Source: Thalassotalea agarivorans
GTDB taxonomy: Bacteria > Pseudomonadota > Gammaproteobacteria > Enterobacterales > Alteromonadaceae
Reading direction: 5' to 3'
Assembly (NCBI RefSeq): GCF_030295955.1
Contig: NZ_AP027363.1
Span: 2,046,001-2,110,000, forward strand
DNA: 64,000 nt
Shown here: positions 10,036-53,760 of the stretch, one piece after another
Layout: every line of letters starts with the position of its first letter
How positions within the stretch are numbered: position 1 is the first letter of the stretch
Translations under genes and position numbers: made by a program
The notes under the pieces: model-generated
Database searches by the model: none
What the model saw: the letters and a program-made list of their open reading frames with translations, nothing else
What the model was told of the DNA's origin: nothing

Positions 10036-11550
10036 TTACTTATCAGTGATGGTCACGCTACCACCAGACGTCCATTTAGCTAAGAGTTTTTGCCAAGGTG
10101 TTACATCCCAATTCAGGCCATTGCCCTGAATAATTGCCGATCTCAGCATTTTAACCGCAGCAGGAAAGTCTCTATTTTCCTCTTTAGATAATGCAATCGC
10201 TTTTAGGTATTTATATTCAGGGTTATCCGATTGGTTATCGGCTATGTCGCTTAAGTACTGATTGGCACCGGGTAAGTCGTGCAATGTTTGCGATTGCGCT
10301 AGCATTTTTAGTTCAGCAAGTTTTAACTTAGCAGCAATATGTCCGTGTGAAGCGGCGCGTTCAAACCAAAATAATGCTTTGGCTTCATCATGCACCACCC
10401 AAGGGCTGTCTAATAACATTCTAGCCAAGCGATACTGTGCTTGCGGTAAGTCGTCATTGGCGGCTTCATACATCCAGTGTATCGCTTGCGATGTTTTTTT
10501 TTGCTGACGATATAGCAACAAACTGTATTCGTACTTTGCAAGCTTGAAATCATTGTTCGCCGCTTGCTCAAACAGCGACTCTACTTCCCCATCCTCACGT
10601 GCTAACCACTTAAAGTTCATTAAGGTCATGGCGTAAGTATATTGATCCTTTATATCCTCGCTGTCTTTTAGTGTATTTGCTTGGCGAACAATATTTTTGT
10701 AAAAACGGTAATAGTCATTTCTCATGCGATACTTATTAAAGCTCGCAAGTCCAAGGTAAGTTCGACTTGTAAAGGCGACAGGCACTTCTTTAAACATCGG
10801 CACTGGAAAGCTATTCATTGACAGGTTAAATAAAGCAGAATCAACTTTACCACTGGATTTCACCGTTGTGATGTTTCTGATCGAACCGTCAGCTTCAATA
10901 TCATAATCAACAATTAAAAAGAAAGGGTCGATAACATCAAAGCCATCTTGAGTGGCATAACCAGTGAAATCGTCAAAGCCTTCATTAAAATCTGGGGAGT
11001 CTAAACTACCACCATAGATGTTTTCCCCTAAAAACTCATCGTTTGTTTGAAGTTCTACCTCTTCTACACTGTCATAATCATCAAATTGTACCTGTAGTGT
11101 TAAATTCTTTTCGTTCACTATAGGTTTAAAGTTTTGGTTGATGCCCTGCTGTTTATAAGACGACTTAGAACGTTCGATTAAGGCAGTTATCTTGGCTTTT
11201 TCTTCAGGCTGAACGTTCGCAATCAAGCTTTTAACAATGTCATTGGCATTATCGTAGTTAAAGTCTGCCGCTAACGAAAACCAGATAAGTGCTTTCATAC
11301 TATCAGCTTGTACACCTAACCCTTTATATTGCATGACCCCTAAGCGATAGAACACTTTAGGGTTTTCACTGTCAACTAGCGCCAAATAGGCGCTAAACGC
11401 TTGCTCAAATTTTTGATTTGCATATAAATCATCGGCGACAGTTAATTCGCTAGCCTGGGGCATAAAGCTCACTGACATTAACGACAAAAAGACAAAGATG
11501 ACCAGACGAGAACTAAAAGAACGACAATTGGGCTTATTTTTGTGAGACAT
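10036..11550 (-). CDS. Sel1-repeat protein with an embedded TonB-C-like domain
   Basis: A 504-aa protein with a signal sequence or N-terminal anchor (about residues 15-36). Sel1-like repeats come first (about 38-120; RLGVMQYKGLGVQADSMKALIWF). A segment resembling the TonB C-terminal fold follows (about 205-270; VDYDIEADGSIRNITTVKSS). More Sel1 repeats come near the C terminus (about 335-420; AQYRLARMLL and ALFWFERAASHGH). It is collinear with the protein at 21442-22764. Sel1 repeats mediate protein contacts; TonB-C domains contact TonB boxes of outer-membrane receptors. A periplasmic role linked to the PUL receptor is inference. It lies downstream of the surface-protein gene, beyond a terminator, with no operator of its own. 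Confidence 0.8.
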   Translation of the reverse strand: MSHKNKPNCRSFSSRLVIFVFLSLMSVSFMPQASELTVADDLYANQKFEQAFSAYLALVDSENPKVFYRLGVMQYKGLGVQADSMKALIWFSLAADFNYDNANDIVKSLIANVQPEEKAKITALIERSKSSYKQQGINQNFKPIVNEKNLTLQVQFDDYDSVEEVELQTNDEFLGENIYGGSLDSPDFNEGFDDFTGYATQDGFDVIDPFFLIVDYDIEADGSIRNITTVKSSGKVDSALFNLSMNSFPVPMFKEVPVAFTSRTYLGLASFNKYRMRNDYYRFYKNIVRQANTLKDSEDIKDQYTYAMTLMNFKWLAREDGEVESLFEQAANNDFKLAKYEYSLLLYRQQKKTSQAIHWMYEAANDDLPQAQYRLARMLLDSPWVVHDEAKALFWFERAASHGHIAAKLKLAELKMLAQSQTLHDLPGANQYLSDIADNQSDNPEYKYLKAIALSKEENRDFPAAVKMLRSAIIQGNGLNWDVTPWQKLLAKWTSGGSVTITDK

Positions 11551-11595
11551 AACATTGACCTATACAACAATAGAAAAGCTAAAAACAGATAAAAA

Positions 11596-11622
11596 AAAAG
11601 CTATTCCAAATGAATAGCTTTT
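11596..11622 (-). terminator. Rho-independent terminator after 11642-13312
   Basis: On the minus strand AAAGCTATTC pairs with GAATAGCTTT around a short loop and is followed by a run of nine T. It lies 20 bp past the stop of the surface-protein gene and should limit read-through into the Sel1 gene. Confidence 0.85.
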
Positions 11623-11641
11623 AACACAGCATTGAACGCTC

Positions 11642-13312
11642 TTATTTTGTTATTTTACGAGCGCGTCTAACAAACATTGATAGACCTAACAGGATAAATG
11701 CATAAAGTCCCATGCTTCCTGAGTCTGGCTTCTCTTGTTCTGTTTTCAAAATAGTTGCTGTAAGTGTTACCGTTTCCTCAGTGCCATAAGACTTGCCGTC
11801 ATGACGCATTTCATTGTTGGTAATGGTCACGGTAAAGGTAACGTCAGTATCAGCATTTAACTCAGGTACCATAAACGATGCTTTAGACGTATCTGCAGCA
11901 GTTAACGTTAGTGGTGCACCTGATGAAGCCCAATTAAAGTTCAATTCAAAACCTTCACTGTCTGTCGTTTCCGTTGCATCTAAGATGACGAAGTCGCCAC
12001 TTTGTAACACTGTAGAACCTTCAGCAACGCCCAGAAGTGCAGCTTTTGCCATAATTTCAGATGGTTTTTTAAGAATATCAACGGTGAATTGTGCTGACAC
12101 GGTAGATAACTTACCTGCAACAGTAAGTTCAAATACCGCTTGCTCTACACTTTGAACACCTTCTGGTGCAGTAAATACTAAGTTACCGTTTTCAATGGCA
12201 ACCTCGATAGGTGAGCCAGAAACTTGTGCCCATGTAAAGGTCGCATTCTCATGATTTGGTACTGACTTACTCGTATCGATAGTAAAGCTATCGCCCGAAA
12301 TTAATTCTGCAAAAACACCACCTAAGTCAATTTTTACACTTTGAGTTGCGTCTTGCGGATAGCCGTCATTTACATCAAGAACGGTATCGTTATCGTCATC
12401 ATCATCAATAACTAAATCTGTTGCATCCATACATGCCTGATCACAAGCTTTGTTATAGTCATCAGGCATACCATCTTTGTCGGTATCAACTGATGCTGCT
12501 GGATCTGTTGGGAAGACATCATACAAATCACTTACGCCATCTTCGTCCATATCGGGAATCGGAGGCCCTTGTAGTGACATATTATCAACCCACATTCTGG
12601 CATATTCTGTGTTTTTGATTGCTGCAGGTTCTTGATCTACTGTACGTAAATATACTTTTACTGGATGTGCCAGGTCGATATCATCCGGCACAGTAAAACT
12701 GTCTGTTACGTTCACCCATGTATTGTCTGACATAACAGTGTTTTCAAGCGTCACATAAGTGACTTCTACATTGCCATTTTCGTCAAGTGGAGCACCGACT
12801 TTCGAATAAGCATAAGCCCAAACAAACGTACCTTTAGTGTAACCATCTGCCGATAAGTTATAGGTTTCGCCAATTTGTAAACCTTCCACTTCCCTCGCTA
12901 AACCGGCACCATGTTCTTGTCTAGCATGGTTGAAGAAAGCAACAGCTGTATCGTTACCTTCCGGTGGACCTTCTGCTAGCTTAATTGAAGTTGGACCAGC
13001 TTTTTGCGTTCGCGTAGCATTAACAAAACGTGTCCAACCTTTACCTACATGGCTATATGCTGGTACGGCAACTTCTTCGCCATTTTCATTTGTTTCAGTG
13101 CGTTGTAAAAATATCGAACCTTCAGCATCATAGGCTAACTGCCCTTTACCCCAACCTTCTGTCTGGAAACCAGTTAAGCCTTCCAAATCGCCATCTGGAA
13201 AATACTCAAATAAATCATCATTCGCAAATGATGATGCGCTCGCTAGCATAAACGTAGCGGTAATAACCGAAGCAACTTTGTTTTTTAATAATATGCTCAT
13301 ATTGTTTCTCAT
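11642..13312 (-). CDS. Cell-surface protein with TSP3-like repeats, Ig/PKD-like domains and a GlyGly-CTERM-like tail
   Basis: A 556-aa exported protein of unknown function. It has a signal peptide (to about residue 30), a beta-rich region (about 32-255) that could be a carbohydrate-binding-type domain, Asp-rich calcium-binding repeats of the thrombospondin type-3 kind (about 257-325; DMDEDGVSDLYD, DTDKDGMPDD), and two Ig/PKD-like domains (about 330-520). The C terminus is Ser/Gly, then a hydrophobic segment, then RRARK, which fits GlyGly-CTERM sorting signals processed by rhombosortase. ATG 13300 (MSILLKN) is an alternative start. The operator 30 bp upstream and the PUL setting suggest that it holds polysaccharide at the cell surface; that is inference. 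Confidence 0.78.
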   Translation of the reverse strand: MRNNMSILLKNKVASVITATFMLASASSFANDDLFEYFPDGDLEGLTGFQTEGWGKGQLAYDAEGSIFLQRTETNENGEEVAVPAYSHVGKGWTRFVNATRTQKAGPTSIKLAEGPPEGNDTAVAFFNHARQEHGAGLAREVEGLQIGETYNLSADGYTKGTFVWAYAYSKVGAPLDENGNVEVTYVTLENTVMSDNTWVNVTDSFTVPDDIDLAHPVKVYLRTVDQEPAAIKNTEYARMWVDNMSLQGPPIPDMDEDGVSDLYDVFPTDPAASVDTDKDGMPDDYNKACDQACMDATDLVIDDDDDNDTVLDVNDGYPQDATQSVKIDLGGVFAELISGDSFTIDTSKSVPNHENATFTWAQVSGSPIEVAIENGNLVFTAPEGVQSVEQAVFELTVAGKLSTVSAQFTVDILKKPSEIMAKAALLGVAEGSTVLQSGDFVILDATETTDSEGFELNFNWASSGAPLTLTAADTSKASFMVPELNADTDVTFTVTITNNEMRHDGKSYGTEETVTLTATILKTEQEKPDSGSMGLYAFILLGLSMFVRRARKITK

Positions 13313-13341
13313 TACTGATTGTCAGTGTTGTTATTATAAAG

Positions 13342-13355
13342 GGATAACGTTTTAC
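13342..13355. promoter_or_regulatory. Predicted LacI-family operator, surface-protein gene
   Basis: GGATAACGTTTTAC, centred on AACGTT, lies 30 bp upstream of the 13312 start codon, where it could cover the promoter or block elongation. A second copy lies 184 bp further upstream. Confidence 0.65.
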
Positions 13356-13525
13356 CTAATTTACACAATATTGACAGTTTGTAAATAGTGAATTGTAATA
13401 TTTTTGTAGCCTATTCTATCGTAAAAAACAGCAAATCAAGCCACAGACCTTTATAGTATTGACGTACACATACGATGAGTTAAATAAAAATTGTTCGCAT
13501 AGAAATAACAATACTTAACAAATAA

Positions 13526-13539
13526 TGGCAACGTTATCT
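13526..13539. promoter_or_regulatory. Predicted LacI-family operator, distal copy
   Basis: TGGCAACGTTATCT, centred on AACGTT, lies between the end of the GH2 gene and the surface-protein gene. With the copy at 13342 it forms a spaced pair of the kind that allows repression by DNA looping. Confidence 0.5.
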
Positions 13540-13553
13540 CTTCTTGCAATAAT

Positions 13554-13580
13554 GCGAGTGACGTTCGACGTTACACTCGC
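13554..13580. terminator. Hairpin after the GH2 gene
   Basis: GCGAGTG (13554-13560) pairs with CACTCGC (13574-13580), and the intervening ACGTTCGACGT extends the stem. It lies 14 bp past the stop of the minus-strand GH2 gene. No T-run follows on the minus strand, so a rho-independent function is uncertain. Confidence 0.45.
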
Positions 13581-13593
13581 AGTATATGTCGAA

Positions 13594-16809
<3,216 letters not shown>

Positions 16810-16870
16810 TTAGTCCTCGTTTAAAAAAGCGAGATACTGGCAGCCATTTTAAATAGCAAACAAGCATCCC

Positions 16871-16884
16871 TGAAAACGTTTTGA
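16871..16884. promoter_or_regulatory. Predicted LacI-family operator, divergent GH2/sulfatase promoter (copy 1)
   Basis: TGAAAACGTTTTGA, centred on AACGTT, lies 68 bp upstream of the GH2 start. It is the weaker of two copies in this divergent region because the right half lacks the usual C. Confidence 0.55.
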
Positions 16885-16928
16885 TTGTTATTATTTAAGG
16901 TTTGCAAGGATAGAGAATAATAAAATAG

Positions 16929-16942
16929 TGGGAACGTTGCCA
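16929..16942. promoter_or_regulatory. Predicted LacI-family operator, divergent GH2/sulfatase promoter (copy 2)
   Basis: TGGGAACGTTGCCA is nearly perfectly palindromic, and its flanking G and C extend the symmetry. It lies 53 bp upstream of the sulfatase ATG at 16995 and 58 bp, centre to centre, from copy 1. Confidence 0.7.
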
Positions 16943-16994
16943 CTTTTAATTTATAGTAATTGAAAACTGATAACTAAAATAATAGAAACTCGCT

Positions 16995-18437
16995 ATGAAC
17001 AAGTTTATTCTTTTACTTTCTTTACTTACTGTCGTTGTTAGCCAACCAGTGCTTTCAAATGAAAAACCTAATTTCATCATTATCTTAACTGACGACCAAG
17101 GTTATGGTGATGTTGGCTTCAATGGTAGCAAGGAGATCATCACCCCGAATATCGACCGAATTGCTACCGAAGGTGCGAAGTTTAGCAACGGTTACGTGAG
17201 CTATGCCGTTTGCGGTCCTAGCCGAGCGGGTTTGTTAACGGGTCGATATCAAGGGCGTTTTGGTTTTGATCGAAATCCGCATATGGATCCAACAGATCCG
17301 ACAGCAGGTGTCCCGTTGGACGAAAAAATGATTTCCGAAGTGTTAAAGCCTGCCGGGTATACCTCAAGTATTATTGGCAAATGGCATATGGGTACTCACC
17401 CTACTTTACGTCCGAATAAACGAGGTTTCGATTATTTCTATGGTTTCCTTTCTGGCGGACATCGTTATTTTCCTGAAGACTTGATTTACGACAGTGTTGA
17501 GCAGGGACTCGAGCAAGAAAACCCAAAGAAACAATGGCTTTCTTGGTATTACACAAAAATTCTCGAGAATGAATCCATTGTCGAAACAGATGAATACCTT
17601 ACCGATGAACTTTCAACGGCTGCAGTCGAGTTTATAAAACGTGAAAAGGACAATCCCTTTTTTATATACCTTGCATACAATGCGCCGCATGCACCTATGC
17701 AAGCAACCAAAGAATACTTAGACAGAAACAAACACATACCAAAAGGGAAAAGACGCACCTATGCCGCTATGGTTACAGCAGTAGATGACGGTGTTGGTCG
17801 TATTCTAAAGACCTTGAAAGAACAAGGAATTGATGACAATACGCTTGTCGTATTCTTATCAGACAATGGTGGTCCTGAAACAAAGAATGGCTCAGATAAT
17901 GGACCACTGAGGGGTGCTAAAGGCGATTACCATGAAGGTGGCATACGTGTTCCATTTGCTATGCGATGGCCGGCTAAAATCCCAAGTGGTCTCGTTTACG
18001 ACAACCCTGTCATTTCGCTAGATTTAATGGCAACTTTTGCCGCTTTAGCAAAAGCTCCTATTAATCCAAACAAGCCATTAGACGGCGTAAATTTACTTCC
18101 ATACCTCACTGGCACCAATAAAGGCGCGCCACATGACATTCTGTTTTGGCGAAACTTCGACAAAGGTATTGTGGCGGCTCGCGAAGGCAATAACAAAACA
18201 CTTTTCATCAAAAAGAGTAATAAGAAAGAGCTGTATAACCTTGAGCAAGATATATCAGAGTCTCGCAATTTAACTAAGGAAAACAAGCAGCACCAACAAA
18301 CCTTTGACACGCAACAATCAAAGATGACGGAATGGGAGTCTGGTTTAGCTAAAGAACCCGCTTTTAAAGGCCTAATCATCGCCAAAAAAGAGAATCAAAA
18401 GGCGACAAAAGCATATAAAAAACAACAGCAAAAATAG
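16995..18437 (+). CDS. Exported sulfatase (paralogue of 8442-9875)
   Basis: S1-family sulfatase of 480 aa with a signal peptide (about residues 1-21). Motifs are ILTDDQGYGDVGFNGS, C-G-P-S-R (Cys 73), GKWHMGTHP and LSDNGG. It is collinear with 8442-9875 over its whole length, so the two arose by duplication or share a recent ancestor. The C terminus is again basic and low in complexity (AKKENQKATKAYKKQQQK). It is one of only two plus-strand sulfatase genes and is paired divergently with the LacZ-type GH2. The next gene downstream is the IS-interrupted EF-hand/thioredoxin gene, 69 bp away. Confidence 0.94.
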   Translation: MNKFILLLSLLTVVVSQPVLSNEKPNFIIILTDDQGYGDVGFNGSKEIITPNIDRIATEGAKFSNGYVSYAVCGPSRAGLLTGRYQGRFGFDRNPHMDPTDPTAGVPLDEKMISEVLKPAGYTSSIIGKWHMGTHPTLRPNKRGFDYFYGFLSGGHRYFPEDLIYDSVEQGLEQENPKKQWLSWYYTKILENESIVETDEYLTDELSTAAVEFIKREKDNPFFIYLAYNAPHAPMQATKEYLDRNKHIPKGKRRTYAAMVTAVDDGVGRILKTLKEQGIDDNTLVVFLSDNGGPETKNGSDNGPLRGAKGDYHEGGIRVPFAMRWPAKIPSGLVYDNPVISLDLMATFAALAKAPINPNKPLDGVNLLPYLTGTNKGAPHDILFWRNFDKGIVAAREGNNKTLFIKKSNKKELYNLEQDISESRNLTKENKQHQQTFDTQQSKMTEWESGLAKEPAFKGLIIAKKENQKATKAYKKQQQK

Positions 18438-18440
18438 AAA

Positions 18441-18460
18441 CAAGGCATTTTTATGCCTTG
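18441..18460 (+). terminator. Hairpin after sulfatase 16995-18437
   Basis: CAAGGCAT, a TTTT loop and ATGCCTTG form a perfect 8-bp stem 3 bp past the stop codon. No T-run follows, so it may be a weak terminator or an mRNA 3'-end protector. Confidence 0.45.
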
Positions 18461-18713
18461 TACATTGCAGCTTAATAATAACAACGACTAACTAAAGCGA
18501 CTTTTTATGAAAACATTACTCTATACCGCACTTTATTGTTTTACTTTGCTAAACAGTAGCGCTTTATTCGCCAACCAGTTGAATATCAGCGATGGTGAAA
18601 AAAGCCGCTTTAATCAGCTAGATAGCAACAATGATGATGCGCTAGACAATATCGAGTTTAGAGAAACCACGAAAGGCTGGATGACTAAGGCAGGATGGTA
18701 AGGCCCCAGAATT

Positions 18714-19574
18714 CTAGACAGTTTCTAGCTCCTTAAAATAACGTTTCTCAAATTCGTTTGGAGAAACACCACCATTTGTACCATGATTTCTTTTTGAATT
18801 GTAGAAACATTCAATGTAGTCAAATATCTCAGCCCTTGCTTCGTCACGGGTTTTATAGATCTTACGTTTAACTCTGTCCTTCTTGAGCAATGAGAAAAAG
18901 CTCTCCGCCACGGCGTTATCATGGCAATTACCTTTCCGACTCATGCTAGCTTCCAAGTTGTGCTCTTTTAAGAAGCTACGCCAATCAGAGGAGGTATATT
19001 GGACTCCCTGATCAGAGTGAACCAGCACCTTACTTTGTGGTCTTCGACGCCATACGGCCATCAGTAAAGCATCGATTACTAGGTCAGATTTGGGGCTGCT
19101 TTTCATCGTCCAGCCAACGACTTTTCGAGAAAATAAGTCAATCACAACCGTGAGATATAGCCACCCCTCGTAAGTGCGGATATATGTGAAATCTGTCACC
19201 CACGTTTGATCGGGCTTATTCACCTTGAACTCCCTATTTAAAGTGTTAGGCGCTGCGGGATGTTGTTTATTATTTCCAAAGCCTCGGTGGCGTTTGTAAC
19301 CTCTGATAGCTTTAATTTTATTGGTTCGCATTATCCGATGGATGCGATTTTTACCGCATATCTCACCATCATTTTTCAAGTCAATCGTGATATTGCGATA
19401 ACCATAGGTACAGCCACTTTCGAGCCAGAATTGTTTAATCTTGCCCAACAGCCTTTGGTCTTCGATTGCACGATTACTCAATGGCTTTTTCTGCCAGGCA
19501 TAAAAACCACTGCGGTTGATGTTAAGAACCTGACACATTAACTCGACAGGATATTGCTTGAGTCGAGATTTCAC
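18714..19574 (-). CDS. IS3-family transposase OrfB (DDE integrase domain)
   Basis: A 286-aa transposase catalytic subunit. An HTH_21-like N terminus (about 15-75) is followed by an rve/integrase core with D128 (TWVTDFTYI), D188 (VHSDQGVQYTS) and E224 (NAVAESFF). The second and third are separated by 35 residues, as expected for IS3. Its start overlaps the end of orfA by 4 bp in another frame. In this family the active OrfAB fusion arises by -1 frameshifting, and A-rich AAAG motifs lie near the end of orfA. The frame is complete, so the element may be mobile. Confidence 0.95.
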   Translation of the reverse strand: MKSRLKQYPVELMCQVLNINRSGFYAWQKKPLSNRAIEDQRLLGKIKQFWLESGCTYGYRNITIDLKNDGEICGKNRIHRIMRTNKIKAIRGYKRHRGFGNNKQHPAAPNTLNREFKVNKPDQTWVTDFTYIRTYEGWLYLTVVIDLFSRKVVGWTMKSSPKSDLVIDALLMAVWRRRPQSKVLVHSDQGVQYTSSDWRSFLKEHNLEASMSRKGNCHDNAVAESFFSLLKKDRVKRKIYKTRDEARAEIFDYIECFYNSKRNHGTNGGVSPNEFEKRYFKELETV

Positions 19575-19864
19575 GAACGTGTACTTTTCTTTGACTCCCC
19601 TGCAAAGTACACGGCGGCCTCCTTTAAGATGTCACGTTCCATTGTAACCCGCTTTAATTCGGCTTTTAAGCGACGTATTTCATCAGATTGGGCATCATCT
19701 ACTTGACGCTGCTTGGCGGGCTTGGAATATCTTTTTACCCAATCATGAATGGACTTGTAGCTGACTCCCAATCGCTCAGCAACGGAAGTCATCGAGTGAC
19801 CTTGCTCTGTTACTTGTTTGACTGCTTGGATTTTAAATTCTTCTGTATAGCGCTGACGGCTCAT
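19571..19864 (-). CDS. IS3-family transposase OrfA (HTH)
   Basis: A 97-aa DNA-binding subunit with a helix-turn-helix (about residues 10-45; TSVAERLGVSYKSIHDWV) and a leucine-zipper-like coiled coil (about 60-85; EIRRLKAELKRVTMERDIL). The ATG is preceded by AGAGGTG. It recognises the terminal repeats and supplies the N-terminal part of the OrfAB transposase. Confidence 0.94.
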   Translation of the reverse strand: MSRQRYTEEFKIQAVKQVTEQGHSMTSVAERLGVSYKSIHDWVKRYSKPAKQRQVDDAQSDEIRRLKAELKRVTMERDILKEAAVYFAGESKKSTRS

Positions 19865-20569
19865 TATTACACCTCTTAGTTTTATATATTATAAAGCTAA
19901 GAACTGTTTAGTGAACTAGGGCCTTACCAGGACTTAGCGAGCAAGATCAAATCACTCAAACTAATAAACGATTTCGTCAGTATGATGCTGATAATAATAG
20001 TCTGTTAACTATCGAGGAGTTTGTCCTAAAAAATAGGCAACAAAACAGCGCTAAACAAACCAGTAAGAAACAAGTTGCTAAATCGCAGAGCAAAGCCAAA
20101 GAGATTGAAACAGCGGCTAATACGCCCTCTGAGCAATTACCTATAGCCCCTAGTTATCTTGGCACTGATAGCGCAGGTAACGAAGTTAACTTAGACGAAT
20201 TGCGAGGCAAAGTGGTGGTGGTTTCATTTTGGGTTTCGTGGTGTAAATCATGTAAAAACGAATTAGCTATTCTAAACAACTTACAACAGCAAGTAGGTAC
20301 CGATCTGTTGAAAGTTGTCGCGGTTGCGCTAAGTAAAGAAAATAAGCTGTCATTCAAAAAGTATCGTGAACAGTTAGCTGAATTAGATTTGACACTCACA
20401 CATGATAAGTTTGGTAAGATTGCTAAAAAATATGGCGTGGATAAGGCACCGCACCTATTCGTAATAAGTAAAGAAGGCAGAATTACGCTAGAACAAAGTG
20501 ATTATAAAAAGACGCCGGTTAATGCTTTGGTAGCAAACTTAAAACAAGAACTTGTGAAATAAACCACAA

Positions 20570-20596
20570 AAAAGTCGGCAAGGAATGTCGACTTTT
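20570..20596 (+). terminator. Terminator after the EF-hand/thioredoxin gene
   Basis: AAAAGTCG (20570-20577) pairs with CGACTTTT (20589-20596) around an 11-nt loop, and T-rich sequence follows. It lies 7 bp past the stop codon of the interrupted gene. Confidence 0.75.
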
Positions 20597-20735
20597 GTTT
20601 CATACTAAACAAGTGATTAAGGCGTTGCTGAACTTTCAGGTGAAAATGTTAGGTCTTGTTTAAGCAGACGATTTCATTAATCACGGTTCTGAAAATTAGG
20701 CATTGACCGCTTTGTGCCATGAACAACCGTTCAAA

Positions 20736-21281
20736 TTAACTTAGTTTCAGATCATAATCTCGATTATAGTCAATTCCTTGAGTTAGCCTTTGTCCTTTTA
20801 ACAATTTTTTATAAGACGATGGCATTACTCGAAAACTATTAACTTTAGTGCTGACCTTATCAATTAATTTTCGAATAATAAGCAATTTTTTTCTAGCTGC
20901 TTCACTATAATATGCTGAGCTAATTACAGTTTGAACGATTGTATCTGAAGCGGCTTCGCCACCAAGCAATATAGATATTGCCGATGGATTAAAGACTTCG
21001 TCAGTTTTAAATTTAATACCGTTACTACCATCCTTCATGGAAAGTTCCCTGCTATTGACGCTTGCAGATTTACTTAGGCACAAAAAAAGAGATTTGGGGT
21101 TTGGGTTTTCGTAATCGACTTGATACTGAGATAAATTCTCAGCATTTTCATAGATTCTTGGGTTTTGATTGAGATCACTTAATGATTGGACAAATTTAAA
21201 TTCACCAATTGAGTTCAGCAATTTAAACAACAGCTCTAAATCATGTCGATCTGCATATATTTCAACGCTCGAACCGTTCAT
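20736..21281 (-). CDS. Hypothetical protein, 181 aa
   Basis: I do not recognise a family. The ATG is preceded by AAGGAGT at good spacing, which supports a real gene. There is no signal peptide or membrane segment, so it is probably cytoplasmic. The N terminus reads like the start of a small alpha/beta domain (VEIYADRHDLELLFKLLNSIGEF). The C-terminal half has a helical, basic stretch (EAARKKLLIIRKLIDKVSTKV). It shows no visible link to polysaccharide use and stands alone between the interrupted thioredoxin gene and the end of the 31532-21442 operon. It could be an immunity- or regulator-like accessory gene, but nothing in the sequence decides this. Confidence 0.7.
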   Translation of the reverse strand: MNGSSVEIYADRHDLELLFKLLNSIGEFKFVQSLSDLNQNPRIYENAENLSQYQVDYENPNPKSLFLCLSKSASVNSRELSMKDGSNGIKFKTDEVFNPSAISILLGGEAASDTIVQTVISSAYYSEAARKKLLIIRKLIDKVSTKVNSFRVMPSSYKKLLKGQRLTQGIDYNRDYDLKLS

Positions 21282-21441
21282 TCAAACTCCTTGTAGTAAT
21301 CGATGTAGACAATAAAGATTTGTTTACTCTCAATGACTCTTAATCGCTCATTGCAGTCTGTCAGACCACATCTAACCCTGTCAATTATTAATGTCCGAGT
21401 GGATTGAGAATTCTCCATATTAAGGTAAAAAAAATACAGCG

Positions 21442-22764
21442 CTATAGCTTTTCAAACTGTTCGGATAGCGCATTAAACTCATTCAATTGCCAACCATAAT
21501 TTTTAGCTAACTTTTTCCCTTCATTCAAAACGCTCAAACCACGTTCTTTATTCTTATAATGCAATTCAGTACTAGCCGCATAATAATACCAGTTGGGGTT
21601 ATATGATTGTTGCTCCTTCACCGAAGCTAGAAGTGCTTTTGCACGATCAGGATCTCTCAACAATTCGTTATCGCTTTCAATCAATAGTCTAGCTAGCCAA
21701 AATTGAGCGTACTGCTCTCCTTGCTCTGCCGCTTGCTCTAACCAAAACTTAGCTTTAACTTCATCTGTTTCGATAGCTCTACCTGATAAAAATTCACGAG
21801 CTAGTTTGTATTGAGCGCGCGCATAGCCGGACTGAGCTGCCCGCAGTAAGTATTGTATAGCTTCTTCTGAGTTTTTATTTGTGCCAAATCCCAACATTAA
21901 CATATAGGCATATTCATTCTCTGCCTCTGGCACACCTGCCTCTGCGGCACTTTTTACGTATGTTTTGTAAATATCACGACCCATATCTAATGAGGGGAAA
22001 GCGACACTAAGCATAGCTAATTGATACTGTGCGTATGGTTCACCACTTTCAGCATCTTTTTTCATTTGCTTAATCTTCTTTAAGAATTTTGGTTCACTCG
22101 ATTGAAGATATTGCATACTTAACTTCTGTCCCCATACACTCCTGCGACCAAAAGCTTTTACAGCTTGTTTATTGCCTCCTTTTCTTCTAGCTGGTCGGTA
22201 AACGTAGTATGAAAGTTGCTCTAAAATATTCGCGACCGCAAAAGGCTCAGTATAAAAGTTTTTATCTATTTCTATATCTTTTACTCGACCATCAGTATCG
22301 ACATCAAAGTGATAAATAGAAGATGCTAAAACTGTACCTCCAACAAACCTTGAACCTGAAGCCGTCCCTGATTTCTTTTGGATTTTTGGCCGCTTAATAT
22401 TTATCGTTTTACCTTTAATAACTGGGTAAATTTTAGTCGACAATGCTTGGTAGCCATAATGCTGTTTAAGCTGACTTTCTGCATACAGTTCTCTGACTGC
22501 TTGGCTCTGACTTGCAGGTAACGATGCCAAAATCCTTTTTGCTTTTTCACTGCCAAAATCTGCAGCTAGGCTCATATACATGACAGCCTTCATATTATCT
22601 ACAGCGACACCTTCGCCGTTAGAATAGGCATTGGCTACTTGCAATTGAGCATAAATGTCTCCCAAATGAGCACTGTTGATTAACTGTTGAAAATGCTCAT
22701 TGTTTTCATTTGCATATGCTGACAAAGAAAATACACACACGAGTGCTTTAACCCAATGTTTCAT
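21442..22764 (-). CDS. Sel1-repeat protein with an embedded TonB-C-like domain (paralogue of 10036-11550)
   Basis: A 440-aa exported protein (signal peptide about 1-18). Sel1 repeats (about 25-95; AQLQVANAYSNGEGVAVDNMKAVMYM) precede a TonB-C-like segment (about 140-200; SIYHFDVDTDGRVKDIEIDK, then LEQLSYYVYRPARR). At least three Sel1 repeats follow (about 240-355; AQYKLAREFLSGRAIETDEVKAKFWLEQAAEQGEQ region). It is the last gene of the beta-helix/sulfatase/GH2 operon, 24 bp after sulfatase 22789-24351. A paralogue beside another PUL unit argues for a function tied to polysaccharide uptake, perhaps contacting the TonB-dependent receptor; this is inference. Confidence 0.83.
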   Translation of the reverse strand: MKHWVKALVCVFSLSAYANENNEHFQQLINSAHLGDIYAQLQVANAYSNGEGVAVDNMKAVMYMSLAADFGSEKAKRILASLPASQSQAVRELYAESQLKQHYGYQALSTKIYPVIKGKTINIKRPKIQKKSGTASGSRFVGGTVLASSIYHFDVDTDGRVKDIEIDKNFYTEPFAVANILEQLSYYVYRPARRKGGNKQAVKAFGRRSVWGQKLSMQYLQSSEPKFLKKIKQMKKDAESGEPYAQYQLAMLSVAFPSLDMGRDIYKTYVKSAAEAGVPEAENEYAYMLMLGFGTNKNSEEAIQYLLRAAQSGYARAQYKLAREFLSGRAIETDEVKAKFWLEQAAEQGEQYAQFWLARLLIESDNELLRDPDRAKALLASVKEQQSYNPNWYYYAASTELHYKNKERGLSVLNEGKKLAKNYGWQLNEFNALSEQFEKL

Positions 22765-36876: not shown

Positions 36877-39822
36877 TTAGAAATTAACGCGTACACCAGC
36901 ATAGTAGCTAATACCACGAGCACTTTGTTGGGCAACAAAATCTGTTGCAGCAAAGCCTAGATGGTCACCTGATAGATACCCTTTAGTTTGAGTTTCATCA
37001 AGTAAGTTACTTGCTTGGGCAAAGACAGTAACGCTTGGAATAATCTTGTATCGAATATTCATGCTCAAGTTTTTACTTGGCCATTGCGTAAAGTAGCTTT
37101 GTCCGTCACGCGTTGCTTGGTAGCTTTGTTGGTTCAAGTTAATACGTGCAGAGAAACTTTTGCCAATATCATAAGTTAACGCAACGTTATAGGTGCTATC
37201 GATCCAACCTAAAGGTTGATACCAAATTTCCGTAGGGATGGTTAATGGGTTGTCGCCTGGGTTACGAATATTGTAATCCTGATGAGCACCATGGAAAAAG
37301 TCCATGTAGTTACCCGATAACGCTAGACCTTTAAGATAATCTGAAATAAAACCTAGATCTTGACGGAAAGAGAATTCCCAACCTTTAACATTACCGCCTT
37401 CGCCTTTAACCTCAGAGGTAACCGGCATAGAAATTGGGTAGCCTTCGCTATCCACTGCACCCTCTACAGGAATATAGTTAGCACCCGTTTGATACAAACC
37501 ATCTAAATCTTTATAGAATCCTGCAATCGCATAGTAATCCCACTGTGTAGGATAGTATTCAAATGAGACATCTACTTGATTTGAGATAATAGGATCTAAG
37601 TATGGGTTACCTGCATCGGCAAGCGTCTTAGATTGCAAATTAACTTCAGTATCGAATTCTTGGTCACTGTTACTTTTCAGTTTCAATGCATTGTTCACAT
37701 CACCCAAACTTGGACGAATCATTGCTTGACCAGCACCAATTCTAATAAAGAATTCATCTGCAGGAATGATGTTCACATTAAGCGATGGTAATACGCCTGA
37801 ATAGTCGTGCGTACTAGTAACAAAGTCAGCACCTTCACCAACTATTAGCTGGAATGTACCAGGAATTGGTTCCCCTGTTTCATCGTTGATTTTTTCTTGA
37901 ACGATGAATTCACTTTGGTAACTTGTTGATTCAAGCTCTGTTGAGTAATAGCGTAAACCGAATGTACCGTTGTAGTAGTCACCTGCGAAGGCGAGTTGTA
38001 CATAGGCTGCATCAGTATTTTCTTCCAACTCATAGCTTGCGAATCTATCTTCGTCAGAAATTGTTCTGTTAGCAAAAAATTCAGGCATTGAACCAATGAT
38101 GTCACCAACATCTACATAGTATAAATCACTAAAGCCCTGAATATACTCAAGCTTTCTGTAGTTCTCGTCTTTCAGCTTGGTCGCTAACGCGTTGAAGTCG
38201 AGGTGACCAAACGCATCTGCCCATTCTTCATCCGTCATCGTACGGTTTTTAGGGTTCTTACTATACTTTTCGCTATCATCAAGATGATCTTTTGTGTTTT
38301 GAGAACGTCTATAACCAAATTTAATCTGATGTAGTGGTCCTAAATCGACATCCCAGATAAAGTCTAACTTAACCGCTGATACCGCGCTTTCCATGAAGTT
38401 TTGGCTATTATTAACACTATGAAAATCAAAGTTGCTTGGATCGCCCAAGTTGTTTTCCAAAATACGTTGATTGATAGCATTACGATCCGGATCATAGGCT
38501 GTACCAGTAAAGTCAGCACCCAAATAGTAAAGGCCATAGTTTGACGTATTAGCGTCAAACGCAATGTAATGATCAGCCGCGTCGTCTATGTTACCTGACG
38601 CGGTTCTGTAACTGTAAAAACGATCTGCCGCCGAGTGCGCAATATCAAGCTCGGCTCTAAAGTCTTCCGTAATTTGATAGGCAAAGTTGATACCAAACAC
38701 ATCCGTTTTATCGTTATTTAGAACGCTGCCGTCCCACTTACCCATACCACCGCCAGGCTTGCGAACAACACCACTCATTAAAAAGTTATCGTCTGATACG
38801 TCAACTTCGTCTTGAGGCACTAACCAATCAACGCCCCAAAAGGTTGGAACCGATAAGGTAAGTACATTTTGTTTATAATCGTATTCAGACGTTAGGTAGT
38901 CAGCAGAAATTAACAAATCATCAGTTAATTGCCACTGCGCAGCTGCAAAGATAGCATCTTGTTCAATGGTAAATTTCTTTGAGTTCAATACCGATGCTGT
39001 ACTTGCGTATTCACCAACTCCATCACCATTTCTGTCTGGTAACCATGCATGATTACCAACCACTTTATCGCCATTTTTGATGCCTTCTAGGTAACGAATG
39101 TCATCACGAAATGCTGCGCCGACAGAAAAAGCAAAATCATCACCGATATGCTGGCTAATCATACCATCGATATTGGTACCATATTTGTCGCCTTCGGTAA
39201 TATCTTTGTACAAAGAGTTACTGTTAACTGTTGCTGAGAACGTTCTCACATTCTTGTCAACTTCCAGAGGTTTAAACGTCTCCATGTTTACATGACCAGA
39301 GATACCACCTTCTAAACCATCTGCCCTAGCTGTCTTGTATACTTGTGCTCTACGAATACTTGCTGATGGATACAAACTTAAGTTAACTGAGCGAGAACCG
39401 AATGAACTTACTACCTCACGGTTATTTAATGTGGTTAACGTATATGCACCACCCATACCACGAACAGAAACGGTATTACTACGGCCGTTATCTTGGTTAC
39501 CTGTTACACCTGTCAAACGCTCTAACGATTCGGCGATACTTTGGTCAGGCAACACACCAATTTCTTCAGCTGATAAGTTGTCAGAAATGCTATTTGCAAA
39601 CTTTTTCATGTTGATGGCCGCAACTTCACTTGAACGCATACCACCTACAGTAATGACTTCAATTTCAGCTTTCTTTTTTTCAGCTTCTTTAGCAGCTTCT
39701 TTTTCTTTTGCCGATTGAGGCTTTTGGATTTCAGCTTCTTCTGATTCTGCAGCGAACGCAATCGATGGTAATTGCACAGATAATGCCGCTAAGAGAGCTA
39801 AACTAATTTTGGACTTGTTCAT
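36877..39822 (-). CDS. TonB-dependent outer-membrane receptor for (sulfated) oligosaccharides
   Basis: A 981-aa receptor. A signal peptide (about 1-24, ending SIAFA) is followed by a charged Glu/Lys/Ala linker, a TonB-box-like IEVITVGG, a plug domain (about 60-190; SVRGMGGAYTLTTLNNREV) and a large beta barrel ending in aromatic F. The longest frame begins at 39909, but the signal peptide and GGGGA before the ATG at 39822 fix that start. It belongs to the large marine receptors annotated as TonB-dependent receptor, carbohydrate type. It has its own terminator and an operator about 100 bp upstream, and is divergent from sulfatase 40241-42145. No SusD-like partner is present, as usual in gammaproteobacteria. 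Confidence 0.94.
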   Translation of the reverse strand: MNKSKISLALLAALSVQLPSIAFAAESEEAEIQKPQSAKEKEAAKEAEKKKAEIEVITVGGMRSSEVAAINMKKFANSISDNLSAEEIGVLPDQSIAESLERLTGVTGNQDNGRSNTVSVRGMGGAYTLTTLNNREVVSSFGSRSVNLSLYPSASIRRAQVYKTARADGLEGGISGHVNMETFKPLEVDKNVRTFSATVNSNSLYKDITEGDKYGTNIDGMISQHIGDDFAFSVGAAFRDDIRYLEGIKNGDKVVGNHAWLPDRNGDGVGEYASTASVLNSKKFTIEQDAIFAAAQWQLTDDLLISADYLTSEYDYKQNVLTLSVPTFWGVDWLVPQDEVDVSDDNFLMSGVVRKPGGGMGKWDGSVLNNDKTDVFGINFAYQITEDFRAELDIAHSAADRFYSYRTASGNIDDAADHYIAFDANTSNYGLYYLGADFTGTAYDPDRNAINQRILENNLGDPSNFDFHSVNNSQNFMESAVSAVKLDFIWDVDLGPLHQIKFGYRRSQNTKDHLDDSEKYSKNPKNRTMTDEEWADAFGHLDFNALATKLKDENYRKLEYIQGFSDLYYVDVGDIIGSMPEFFANRTISDEDRFASYELEENTDAAYVQLAFAGDYYNGTFGLRYYSTELESTSYQSEFIVQEKINDETGEPIPGTFQLIVGEGADFVTSTHDYSGVLPSLNVNIIPADEFFIRIGAGQAMIRPSLGDVNNALKLKSNSDQEFDTEVNLQSKTLADAGNPYLDPIISNQVDVSFEYYPTQWDYYAIAGFYKDLDGLYQTGANYIPVEGAVDSEGYPISMPVTSEVKGEGGNVKGWEFSFRQDLGFISDYLKGLALSGNYMDFFHGAHQDYNIRNPGDNPLTIPTEIWYQPLGWIDSTYNVALTYDIGKSFSARINLNQQSYQATRDGQSYFTQWPSKNLSMNIRYKIIPSVTVFAQASNLLDETQTKGYLSGDHLGFAATDFVAQQSARGISYYAGVRVNF

Positions 39823-39922
39823 AATTCCCCGCCAGGTTTCGTCACATATACTTATTGTTTTTGAGTTTTGATTTATTCTTGTAAATATTTCCTGCGATCG
39901 TAAAAGCATCCACTTCTACTAG

Positions 39923-53256: not shown

Positions 53257-53760
53257 CTAATGACTAAATACTTCATCACTCGCTCTTTTTTGAGCCGCAG
53301 TGTCTCTTAGTTTAGCCACGCAATAATTAGTTAACGCTTTATTACTTCTTCCCTTGTGCTGTTTGGTCGAAAATTCAAACTGAACAGAGGTTAAAACAGG
53401 TTTGTAATCCGCATTCGATGGCGCTGGTTTCCACTGCCACTGTTGCAATGCCGCGATAGTTGCTTTTTCGAAATCTGCCGGAACGGTAGATCGTCTAATA
53501 TTAAACTTTTCTGGATAACCCGCACTATTTATAAGTACCTGCACATCAATACAACCTCTCAACCCTTTTAATTCATAAGCTGGTGGGTAAACTGGGTTTG
53601 GTGTGTGCTTTTTCAGCCAAAACATGCGCGTTAGGTGAACTTCATCAAAAGAAGACACGTCGGTTATTTTAACTTTTTCTCTAGGTTTTATTTCGACAGG
53701 TTCGGATGCACTACATGACATTAGTAAAAGACTAGACGCCGCAAGCCAAAATTGTTTCAT
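53257..53760 (-). CDS. Lipoprotein with TonB C-terminal-like domain
   Basis: A 167-aa protein. The lipobox LMSC gives a lipidated Cys at residue 16. Residues about 50-135 look like the TonB-C fold (NPVYPPAYELKGLRGCIDVQ, INSAGYPEKFNIRRS, ALQQWQWKPA). It lacks the N-terminal membrane helix and proline-rich spacer of a true TonB, so it cannot couple to ExbBD in the usual way. It stands alone with its own terminator. The role is unknown; it may be a periplasmic or outer-membrane partner of receptors. Confidence 0.8.
   Translation of the reverse strand: MKQFWLAASSLLLMSCSASEPVEIKPREKVKITDVSSFDEVHLTRMFWLKKHTPNPVYPPAYELKGLRGCIDVQVLINSAGYPEKFNIRRSTVPADFEKATIAALQQWQWKPAPSNADYKPVLTSVQFEFSTKQHKGRSNKALTNYCVAKLRDTAAQKRASDEVFSH

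Follow-up and report, generated by a model that had tools for sequence, protein, structure and literature searches.

Sel1-repeat proteins with an embedded TonB-type C-terminal fold, linked to sulfatase loci in Thalassotalea agarivorans and its relatives: candidate periplasmic interaction hubs

Two proteins of Thalassotalea agarivorans, here called P0001 and P0002, carry a domain related to the C-terminal domain of TonB (TonB-C) between two sets of Sel1 repeats. Both are encoded in a 64,000-nucleotide stretch (NCBI RefSeq assembly GCF_030295955.1, contig NZ_AP027363.1, positions 2,046,001 to 2,110,000 of the forward strand; hereafter ‘the window’), which is a sulfated-polysaccharide locus holding many sulfatases, GH2 and GH95 enzymes, a major facilitator superfamily transporter, a LacI regulator and a TonB-dependent receptor. 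We see the new element as a TonB-C fold set inside a Sel1 solenoid and tied to sulfatase loci, with a derived domain and a C-terminal tail. Our preferred reading, held tentatively, is that P0001 and P0002 are periplasmic interaction hubs for sulfated-polysaccharide enzymes, built on a repurposed TonB-C fold; it is more likely that they hold or regulate the enzymes of the locus than that they power transport.

Both open reading frames (ORFs) described in an earlier note on this DNA were confirmed on the minus strand (Table 1), with the domain order given there: a predicted signal peptide, Sel1 repeats, the TonB-C-like domain and further Sel1 repeats. Sel1 scores exceed the Pfam cut-off of 30.7 bits (PF08238) in both, at 63.9 bits for P0001 and 79.9 bits for P0002. 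In P0001 the TonB-C-fold domain is internal (approximately residues 209–268 of 504), not C-terminal as in TonB energy transducers. The absence of a proline-rich spacer, also remarked upon in that note, extends to the whole family: none of the 46 members has six or more prolines within 30 residues at start positions 31–300, none has a lipobox, and 45 lack a second strongly hydrophobic segment; the sole exception (L119) gives a hydrophobic hit that appears to be its signal region, the start having been called too far upstream. Signal peptides were judged by a crude hydropathy test rather than by a dedicated predictor; 25/46 members pass, P0001 included, whilst P0002 fails and its short signal peptide was judged by eye. 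By sequence, the hydrophobic stretch at the N-terminus looks like a signal peptide that would be cleaved off, which would leave no membrane anchor in the mature protein; both proteins are probably secreted.

Taken on sequence alone, the TonB-C assignment is weak. Against Pfam TonB_C (PF03544, cut-off 24.6 bits) P0001 scores 14.6 bits and P0002 gives no match; a genome-wide scan returns 16.9 and 13 bits for the two proteins, again below the cut-off, and even at E up to 1 the model finds 2 of the 46 family members. Structure prediction, which the earlier note had put forward as a check, recovers the expected fold for P0001. The AlphaFold2 (AF2) model of the full protein, run on 46 sequences, has a mean predicted local distance difference test score (pLDDT) of 87.5 and comprises helices (residues 32–140), a strand-strand-helix-strand-strand unit (211–267) and a second set of helices (273–494), together with a disordered acidic loop and a free tail. 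When the whole model was used for fold searches, the 50 best matches per method were Sel1, tetratricopeptide repeat (TPR) and other helical-repeat proteins, because the solenoids fill the list; the domain was therefore predicted and searched alone. This separate model has a mean pLDDT of 77.5 over 145 residues, with 63 at 90 or above. Foldseek ranks 1–17 are then all C-terminal domains of TonB-type proteins (TonB, FusB, HasB) or TolA, albeit with a best E of only 0.02, and the same holds for VIA-align ranks 1–24 (Z 7.8 to 4.7). The best VIA-align match, a TonB chain taken from a FoxA receptor complex, has a Z of 7.8 over 82 residues (root-mean-square deviation 3.0), and the match after rank 24 drops to Z 3.0. 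TolA (Z 6.8) and TonB (7.8) tie within the limit of the tool; as modelled, the fold cannot separate the two for the P0001 domain. The TonB/TolA C-terminal fold is found for P0001 by structure comparison, and for P0002 by profile comparison only. The first helix of TonB_C, which bears its YP motif, seems to be absent from the P0001-type domain, judging by model and profiles.

Compared directly with the nine TonB_C domains of this genome, the P0001 domain aligns over just 28 columns (probability 47.9), so that bridging relatives were needed. The P0001-clade profile matches ten such relatives with a probability of 86.8 (E 4e-6) and the P0002-clade profile with an hhalign probability of 95.3 (E 2e-8), and the bridging relatives in turn match the nine TonB_C proteins with a probability of 99.6 (E 3e-24); reversed and Sel1 profiles used as controls give 0.1–0.2, the E-values here being those of single pairs. 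The ten bridging relatives come from other genomes; nine exceed the TonB_C cut-off (scores of all ten: 39.4, 32.1, 32.0, 58.5, 101.3, 26.4, 69.5, 30.2, 28.6 and 22.4 bits), and Sel1 falls below its own cut-off in two (L170, L173). P0002 also matches a model of three of them over positions 42–452 of 460 (E 2e-33). Between the structure matches, this profile bridge and the bridging relatives themselves, the TonB-C-like domain of the earlier note is borne out. One relative (L174:8157-9926, 589 amino acids) has two TonB_C domains, one inside Sel1 repeats and the other C-terminal, after a linker of mixed composition.

Scanning 84,980 species genomes with two peptide patterns as seeds, which makes the result a sample, gave 69 loci, 40 of which (L101–L140) encode full-length or nearly full-length homologues of P0001; 39 lie in Alteromonadaceae, Colwelliaceae or Pseudoalteromonadaceae and one in Microbulbifer. 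Three loci (L112, L125, L139) hold tandem pairs of P0001-type genes, the second in L139 being short and without the tail. A quick, unrooted tree, with support from the Shimodaira–Hasegawa-like approximate likelihood ratio test only and long branches for L173 and L174, splits into ten core-like rows (98), P0002 with a Catenovulum protein (98) and 44 P0001-type rows (100). The two window proteins were described as paralogous: they are homologous (26% identity over 388 columns, E 5e-22 for this single pair) but, since they sit in separate clades, are not recent local duplicates, and the tree does not support a recent duplication of P0001 into P0002. In the Catenovulum strain the two types of gene lie 3 kb apart on either side of a sulfatase, so that their pairing is seen at least once more. 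Of 59 relative genomes, the window’s own among them, four (G016, G019, G021, G028) carry a core form at full length; these four have 1, 0, 0 and 2 sulfatases (E up to 1e-30). We take the core form to be the older because its TonB_C domain is canonical.

Relative to these canonical domains, that of the P0001 clade is derived. The W-x-aromatic motif is found in 0/44 members of the clade, as against 10/10 bridging and 8/9 canonical domains, and P0002 lacks the W motif too; a YPxxA-like motif is likewise found in 0/44, as against 9/10 bridging relatives with a looser pattern or 7/10 with strict YP, the patterns differing between the groups compared. At the C-terminus, 41/44 clade members end in a tail of the form G-x-V-x-[IV]-x-[DE], seen in 0/12 other relatives (one a partial row) and in 3/420 background ORFs, or 22/420 with a looser pattern; because the patterns were drawn up after the tails had been seen, this is a descriptive contrast. 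With its alternating hydrophobic residues, the tail looks like strands of the type of a receptor’s TonB box (EVITVTG in L138), which is no more than a likeness. Docking of the tail onto its own domain was considered and set aside: the monomer AF2 model leaves the tail free, at low confidence.

The link to polysaccharide utilization loci (PULs), claimed in the earlier note for the window, holds for P0001-type genes in the form of sulfatases. Within the neighbourhoods fetched, approximately 10 kb either side of the gene (8 of them shortened by contig ends), a sulfatase ORF is present in 24/40 P0001-type loci as against some 4.9 at most expected, and none of 200,000 simulations reaches 24. Sulfatases were detected by phmmer with the proteins of the window, and the chance value is a union bound from Pfam counts per genome, based on 39 of the 40 loci (L123 and L124 being assigned to genomes via a shared record name); with at least 50 sulfatase candidates in 4 of 33 genomes, the bound of 4.9 is maybe slightly low. 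Among genomes of the window’s family, the 5/35 with a full-length P0001 homologue (its own included) are richer in sulfatases than the 30 without (Mann–Whitney p 0.005, on counts taken up to 32 per genome). Other neighbours of P0001-type genes include rhamnosidases, GH2, GH42, GH92, GH95, GH43 and fucosidases, and GH92, GH2, GH43 or rhamnose-related genes occur in some of the other loci (some names by eye).

TonB and TolA C-terminal domains dock their partners by strand addition. As interaction hubs, P0001 and P0002 would be soluble in the periplasm, as their N-termini suggest, where their two Sel1 solenoids would bind other proteins: most likely the exported sulfatases and glycoside hydrolases encoded alongside them, or proteins organising these enzymes. 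The middle domain may, by strand addition, dock a peptide or strand belonging to an envelope partner, in this case with no energy transduction. This reading is supported by the lack of spacer, lipobox or (in 45/46) second hydrophobic segment, by the high-confidence solenoid-domain-solenoid model with its TonB/TolA-type fold, and by the genomic setting: the sulfatase linkage, the sulfatase-rich genomes, P0002 lying 24 bp after a sulfatase, and a gene order of GH2, PKD and Sel1 that is found again in two Colwellia genomes. Several points weigh against it. The P0001-type domain has lost motifs that its relatives keep and may therefore no longer bind any peptide, and the binding partners of both proteins are predicted ones. 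Sixteen of the 40 loci have no sulfatase nearby, several of these being housekeeping-like (the rpsF-rplI and mutL/miaA regions), and two of the five homologue-bearing genomes have only 2 sulfatases. Lastly, loci with a sulfatase group together on the tree (9 changes of label against a shuffled mean of 19.1, with the starred branches still forcing at least 8), so the 40 loci are not independent but partly related by descent.

The main rival, unlikely though it is in our estimation, would make these proteins periplasmic signalling subunits that sense oligosaccharide, enzyme load or receptor state and control a membrane regulator, like the Sel1 protein ExoR with the sensor ExoS; ExoR binds and regulates ExoS (PMC7327166). 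In three loci from three genera (L119:11431-13564, L120:11459-13631, L124:11502-13721) the Sel1/TonB-C gene comes directly before genes for a BlaI-type repressor and for an M56 (BlaR1-type) protease that has TPR-like repeats (the protease of L124 identified by phmmer only), and twice in one genome, G034 (L099:9465-15848, L175:262-6151), a Sel1/TonB_C gene scoring above the cut-off, a Trans_reg_C/PD40 regulator and a TonB-dependent receptor adjoin one another (the L099 receptor by phmmer only). However, phmmer finds the BlaI/M56 pair in only 3 of the 40 P0001-type loci, all within one nine-row clade, the regulator found in the window’s locus is the LacI protein, and P0001 reaches 18 bits of the 450 required by the ExoR model.

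An improbable alternative has the family as a general envelope factor trapped in polysaccharide loci; that is, a relative of a housekeeping gene hitch-hiking with mobile islands. The neighbours that we take to be rpsF, rplI, mutL, miaA, hemE, sthA, recN and dnaK were named by eye from their sequences. On this naming, the core full-length gene has the presumed sthA as its same-strand neighbour in each of the four genomes that carry it (L097, L098, L100, L170), and further relatives lie near recN-like, dnaK-like and other housekeeping genes; the roughly fivefold sulfatase linkage and the conserved, clade-specific tail point instead to a specialised role.

The earlier note had itself suggested that the proteins act at the TonB box as adaptors or competitors, the domain binding the TonB box carried by the receptor of the locus, then either handing over to TonB or blocking it, which we now regard as distinctly improbable. 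The fold and the FoxA-complexed TonB chain at the head of the VIA-align list would fit such a role, as would the receptor in the window’s locus, the receptor directly preceding the P0001-type gene in L138 and those beside the two G034 relatives. Yet receptors, of which there are approximately 53 per genome, are not enriched near P0001-type genes: our own hidden Markov model and motif place them in 8/40 loci, or some 11 at most, where 8.7–9.9 would be expected by chance. The lower figure is a floor and the higher a ceiling, because later checks added doubtful ones: Pfam gives 10 receptor ORFs among the 116 non-Sel1 ORFs of at least 560 amino acids in these loci, a further check adds a probable receptor in L111 and a partial ORF where the L123 stretch ends, and a rescan of ten ORFs (possible receptors or controls) ruled out five, confirmed four known receptors and left one with no family. 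As an explanation of the PUL link, linkage to receptors does not hold up in general. The P0001 clade, moreover, has lost the W-x-aromatic and YP motifs in 44/44 members, and the match to TolA domains is about as good as that to TonB. The earlier note would count it against its idea if the same proteins turned up with no tie to receptors or PULs, and this is partly so: relatives with intact TonB_C and the same domain order lie mostly in housekeeping loci, although two of them, both from G034, do lie beside a receptor.

Highly improbable, in our view, is that the pairing of TonB with the TonB box has been turned inward, such that each molecule’s domain docks the C-terminal tail of its neighbour, or a similar tail on a partner, to give a periplasmic chain; if true, it would be a scaffold arraying sulfatases and glycoside hydrolases, made from the coupling piece of a transport motor.

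Within the window, P0002 closes a tightly spaced run of genes (five upstream gaps of 24, 15, 55, 4 and 9 bp, the first to a sulfatase), in keeping with the earlier note’s view that one of the pair ends an operon; P0001 follows the gene for a PKD-type protein and ends no run, with four sulfatases and a GH95 gene coming after a gap of 160 bp. The 91-bp gap between the PKD gene and P0001 contains a terminator-like hairpin, which, because 14 such sites were found in all as against 11.5 expected, is a consensus match only. An IS3-like transposase (rve, HTH_21; 18714–19574, minus strand) separates the two gene runs, and a protein of L130 matches a window ORF near 19571. Directly after P0002 lies a 181-amino-acid protein (20736–21281, minus strand) with no Pfam match. 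Further sulfatases at approximately 2.025–2.035 Mb on the same contig suggest that the sulfatase locus extends to the left of the window.

Table 1. Positions of P0001, P0002, their parts and neighbouring features, numbered from the first nucleotide of the window
Feature	Position	Strand	Support or remark
P0001, first Sel1/TonB-C protein, 504 amino acids	10036..11550	-	ORF and translation; Sel1 63.9 bits; TonB_C 14.6 bits (below cut-off); AF2 mean pLDDT 87.5
Predicted signal peptide of P0001, ~residues 1–34 (end by eye)	11449..11550	-	Hydrophobic N-terminus, no lipobox
N-terminal Sel1-type solenoid of P0001, ~residues 35–140	11131..11448	-	AF2 helices, Sel1 matches
Acidic disordered loop of P0001, residues 176–205	10936..11025	-	pLDDT <50
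TonB/TolA-C-fold domain of P0001, ~residues 209–268 (strand, strand, helix, short strand, strand)	10747..10926	-	Structure and profile comparison
C-terminal Sel1 solenoid of P0001, residues 281–494	10069..10710	-	Sel1 matches, AF2 model, fold search
C-terminal tail of P0001, GGSVTITDK-type	10039..10068	-	Conserved in P0001 clade; free in monomer model, low pLDDT
P0002, second Sel1/TonB-C protein, 440 amino acids	21442..22764	-	ORF and translation; Sel1 79.9 bits; match to model of canonical relatives
TonB-C-like domain of P0002, ~residues 148–212	22129..22323	-	Sequence-based: alignment to canonical TonB_C relatives; hhalign 95.3 for P0002 clade
C-terminal Sel1 region of P0002 (ends approximate)	21475..22107	-	Sel1 matches
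PKD-type domain protein, just upstream of P0001	11642..13312	-	Homologue at equivalent position in Colwellia loci L101, L102
Terminator-like hairpin, gap between PKD gene and P0001	11596..11622	-	11-pair stem, then T run
Sulfatase downstream of P0001	8442..9875	-	
Sulfatase 24 bp upstream of P0002	22789..24351	-	
TonB-dependent receptor found in locus	36877..39909	-	14 kb from P0002, 25 kb from P0001

Each part of the arrangement has its counterparts. With Sel1-like repeat proteins (PF08238; 6ok3, LceB 8sxq, LpnE 6deh, HcpC 1ouv) P0001 shares Sel1 scores above the cut-off and a solenoid fold, the comparison covering the repeats and solenoid only; P0001 has, in addition, a TonB/TolA-fold domain between its repeats. 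With the TonB C-terminal domain (PF03544; 1u07, 6i97, 7zc8) it shares the fold of the middle domain and homology via the bridging relatives, whereas in P0001 the domain scores below the cut-off, is internal, lacks the YP and W-x-aromatic motifs and has no proline-rich spacer. TolA domain III (2x9a, 3qdp) shares the fold (Z 6.8 and 6.3), but the bridging relatives match TonB_C, with no TolA model among the matches listed. AlgK serves alginate export. This Sel1/TPR lipoprotein (3e4b) has Sel1 repeats and a polysaccharide context in common with P0001, which scores 21.1 bits of the 700 required by the NCBIfam equivalog cut-off, has no lipobox and sits in a locus for degradation, not export. ExoR is a periplasmic Sel1 protein (PMC7327166), as P0001 and P0002 presumably are; P0001 falls far short of the NCBIfam equivalog cut-off (18 of 450 bits) and has the extra TonB-C-fold domain.

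Nor is TonB_C outside classical TonB rare in this genome. Nine of its proteins score above the cut-off; by eye, three look like classical TonB (L063–L065), three are small and lipoprotein-like, and one resembles an M56-type membrane protein that ends in TonB_C (G000:C1:287475-287708, minus strand). The window itself encodes, outside the polysaccharide genes, a lipoprotein-like protein of 167 amino acids (53257–53760, minus strand) with TonB_C at 51.1 bits, above the cut-off. In searches of mostly non-subscription literature we found no publication joining Sel1 repeats with the TonB C-terminal domain, with TonB and PULs together, or with ulvan lyase, nor one that combines the TonB C-terminal domain with tetratricopeptide repeats in a periplasmic, TonB-dependent setting; PMC5943477 makes no mention of Sel1.

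Because the TonB-C fold is used here inside a repeat protein, a TonB_C match or TonB-like annotation is not proof of an energy transducer and need not imply one. To our knowledge, there is little understanding of how Gram-negative bacteria organise the many sulfatases and glycosidases that they export; a conserved repeat protein with no recognised enzyme domain, tied to the sulfatase loci of algal-polysaccharide degraders, is a candidate for this organising role.

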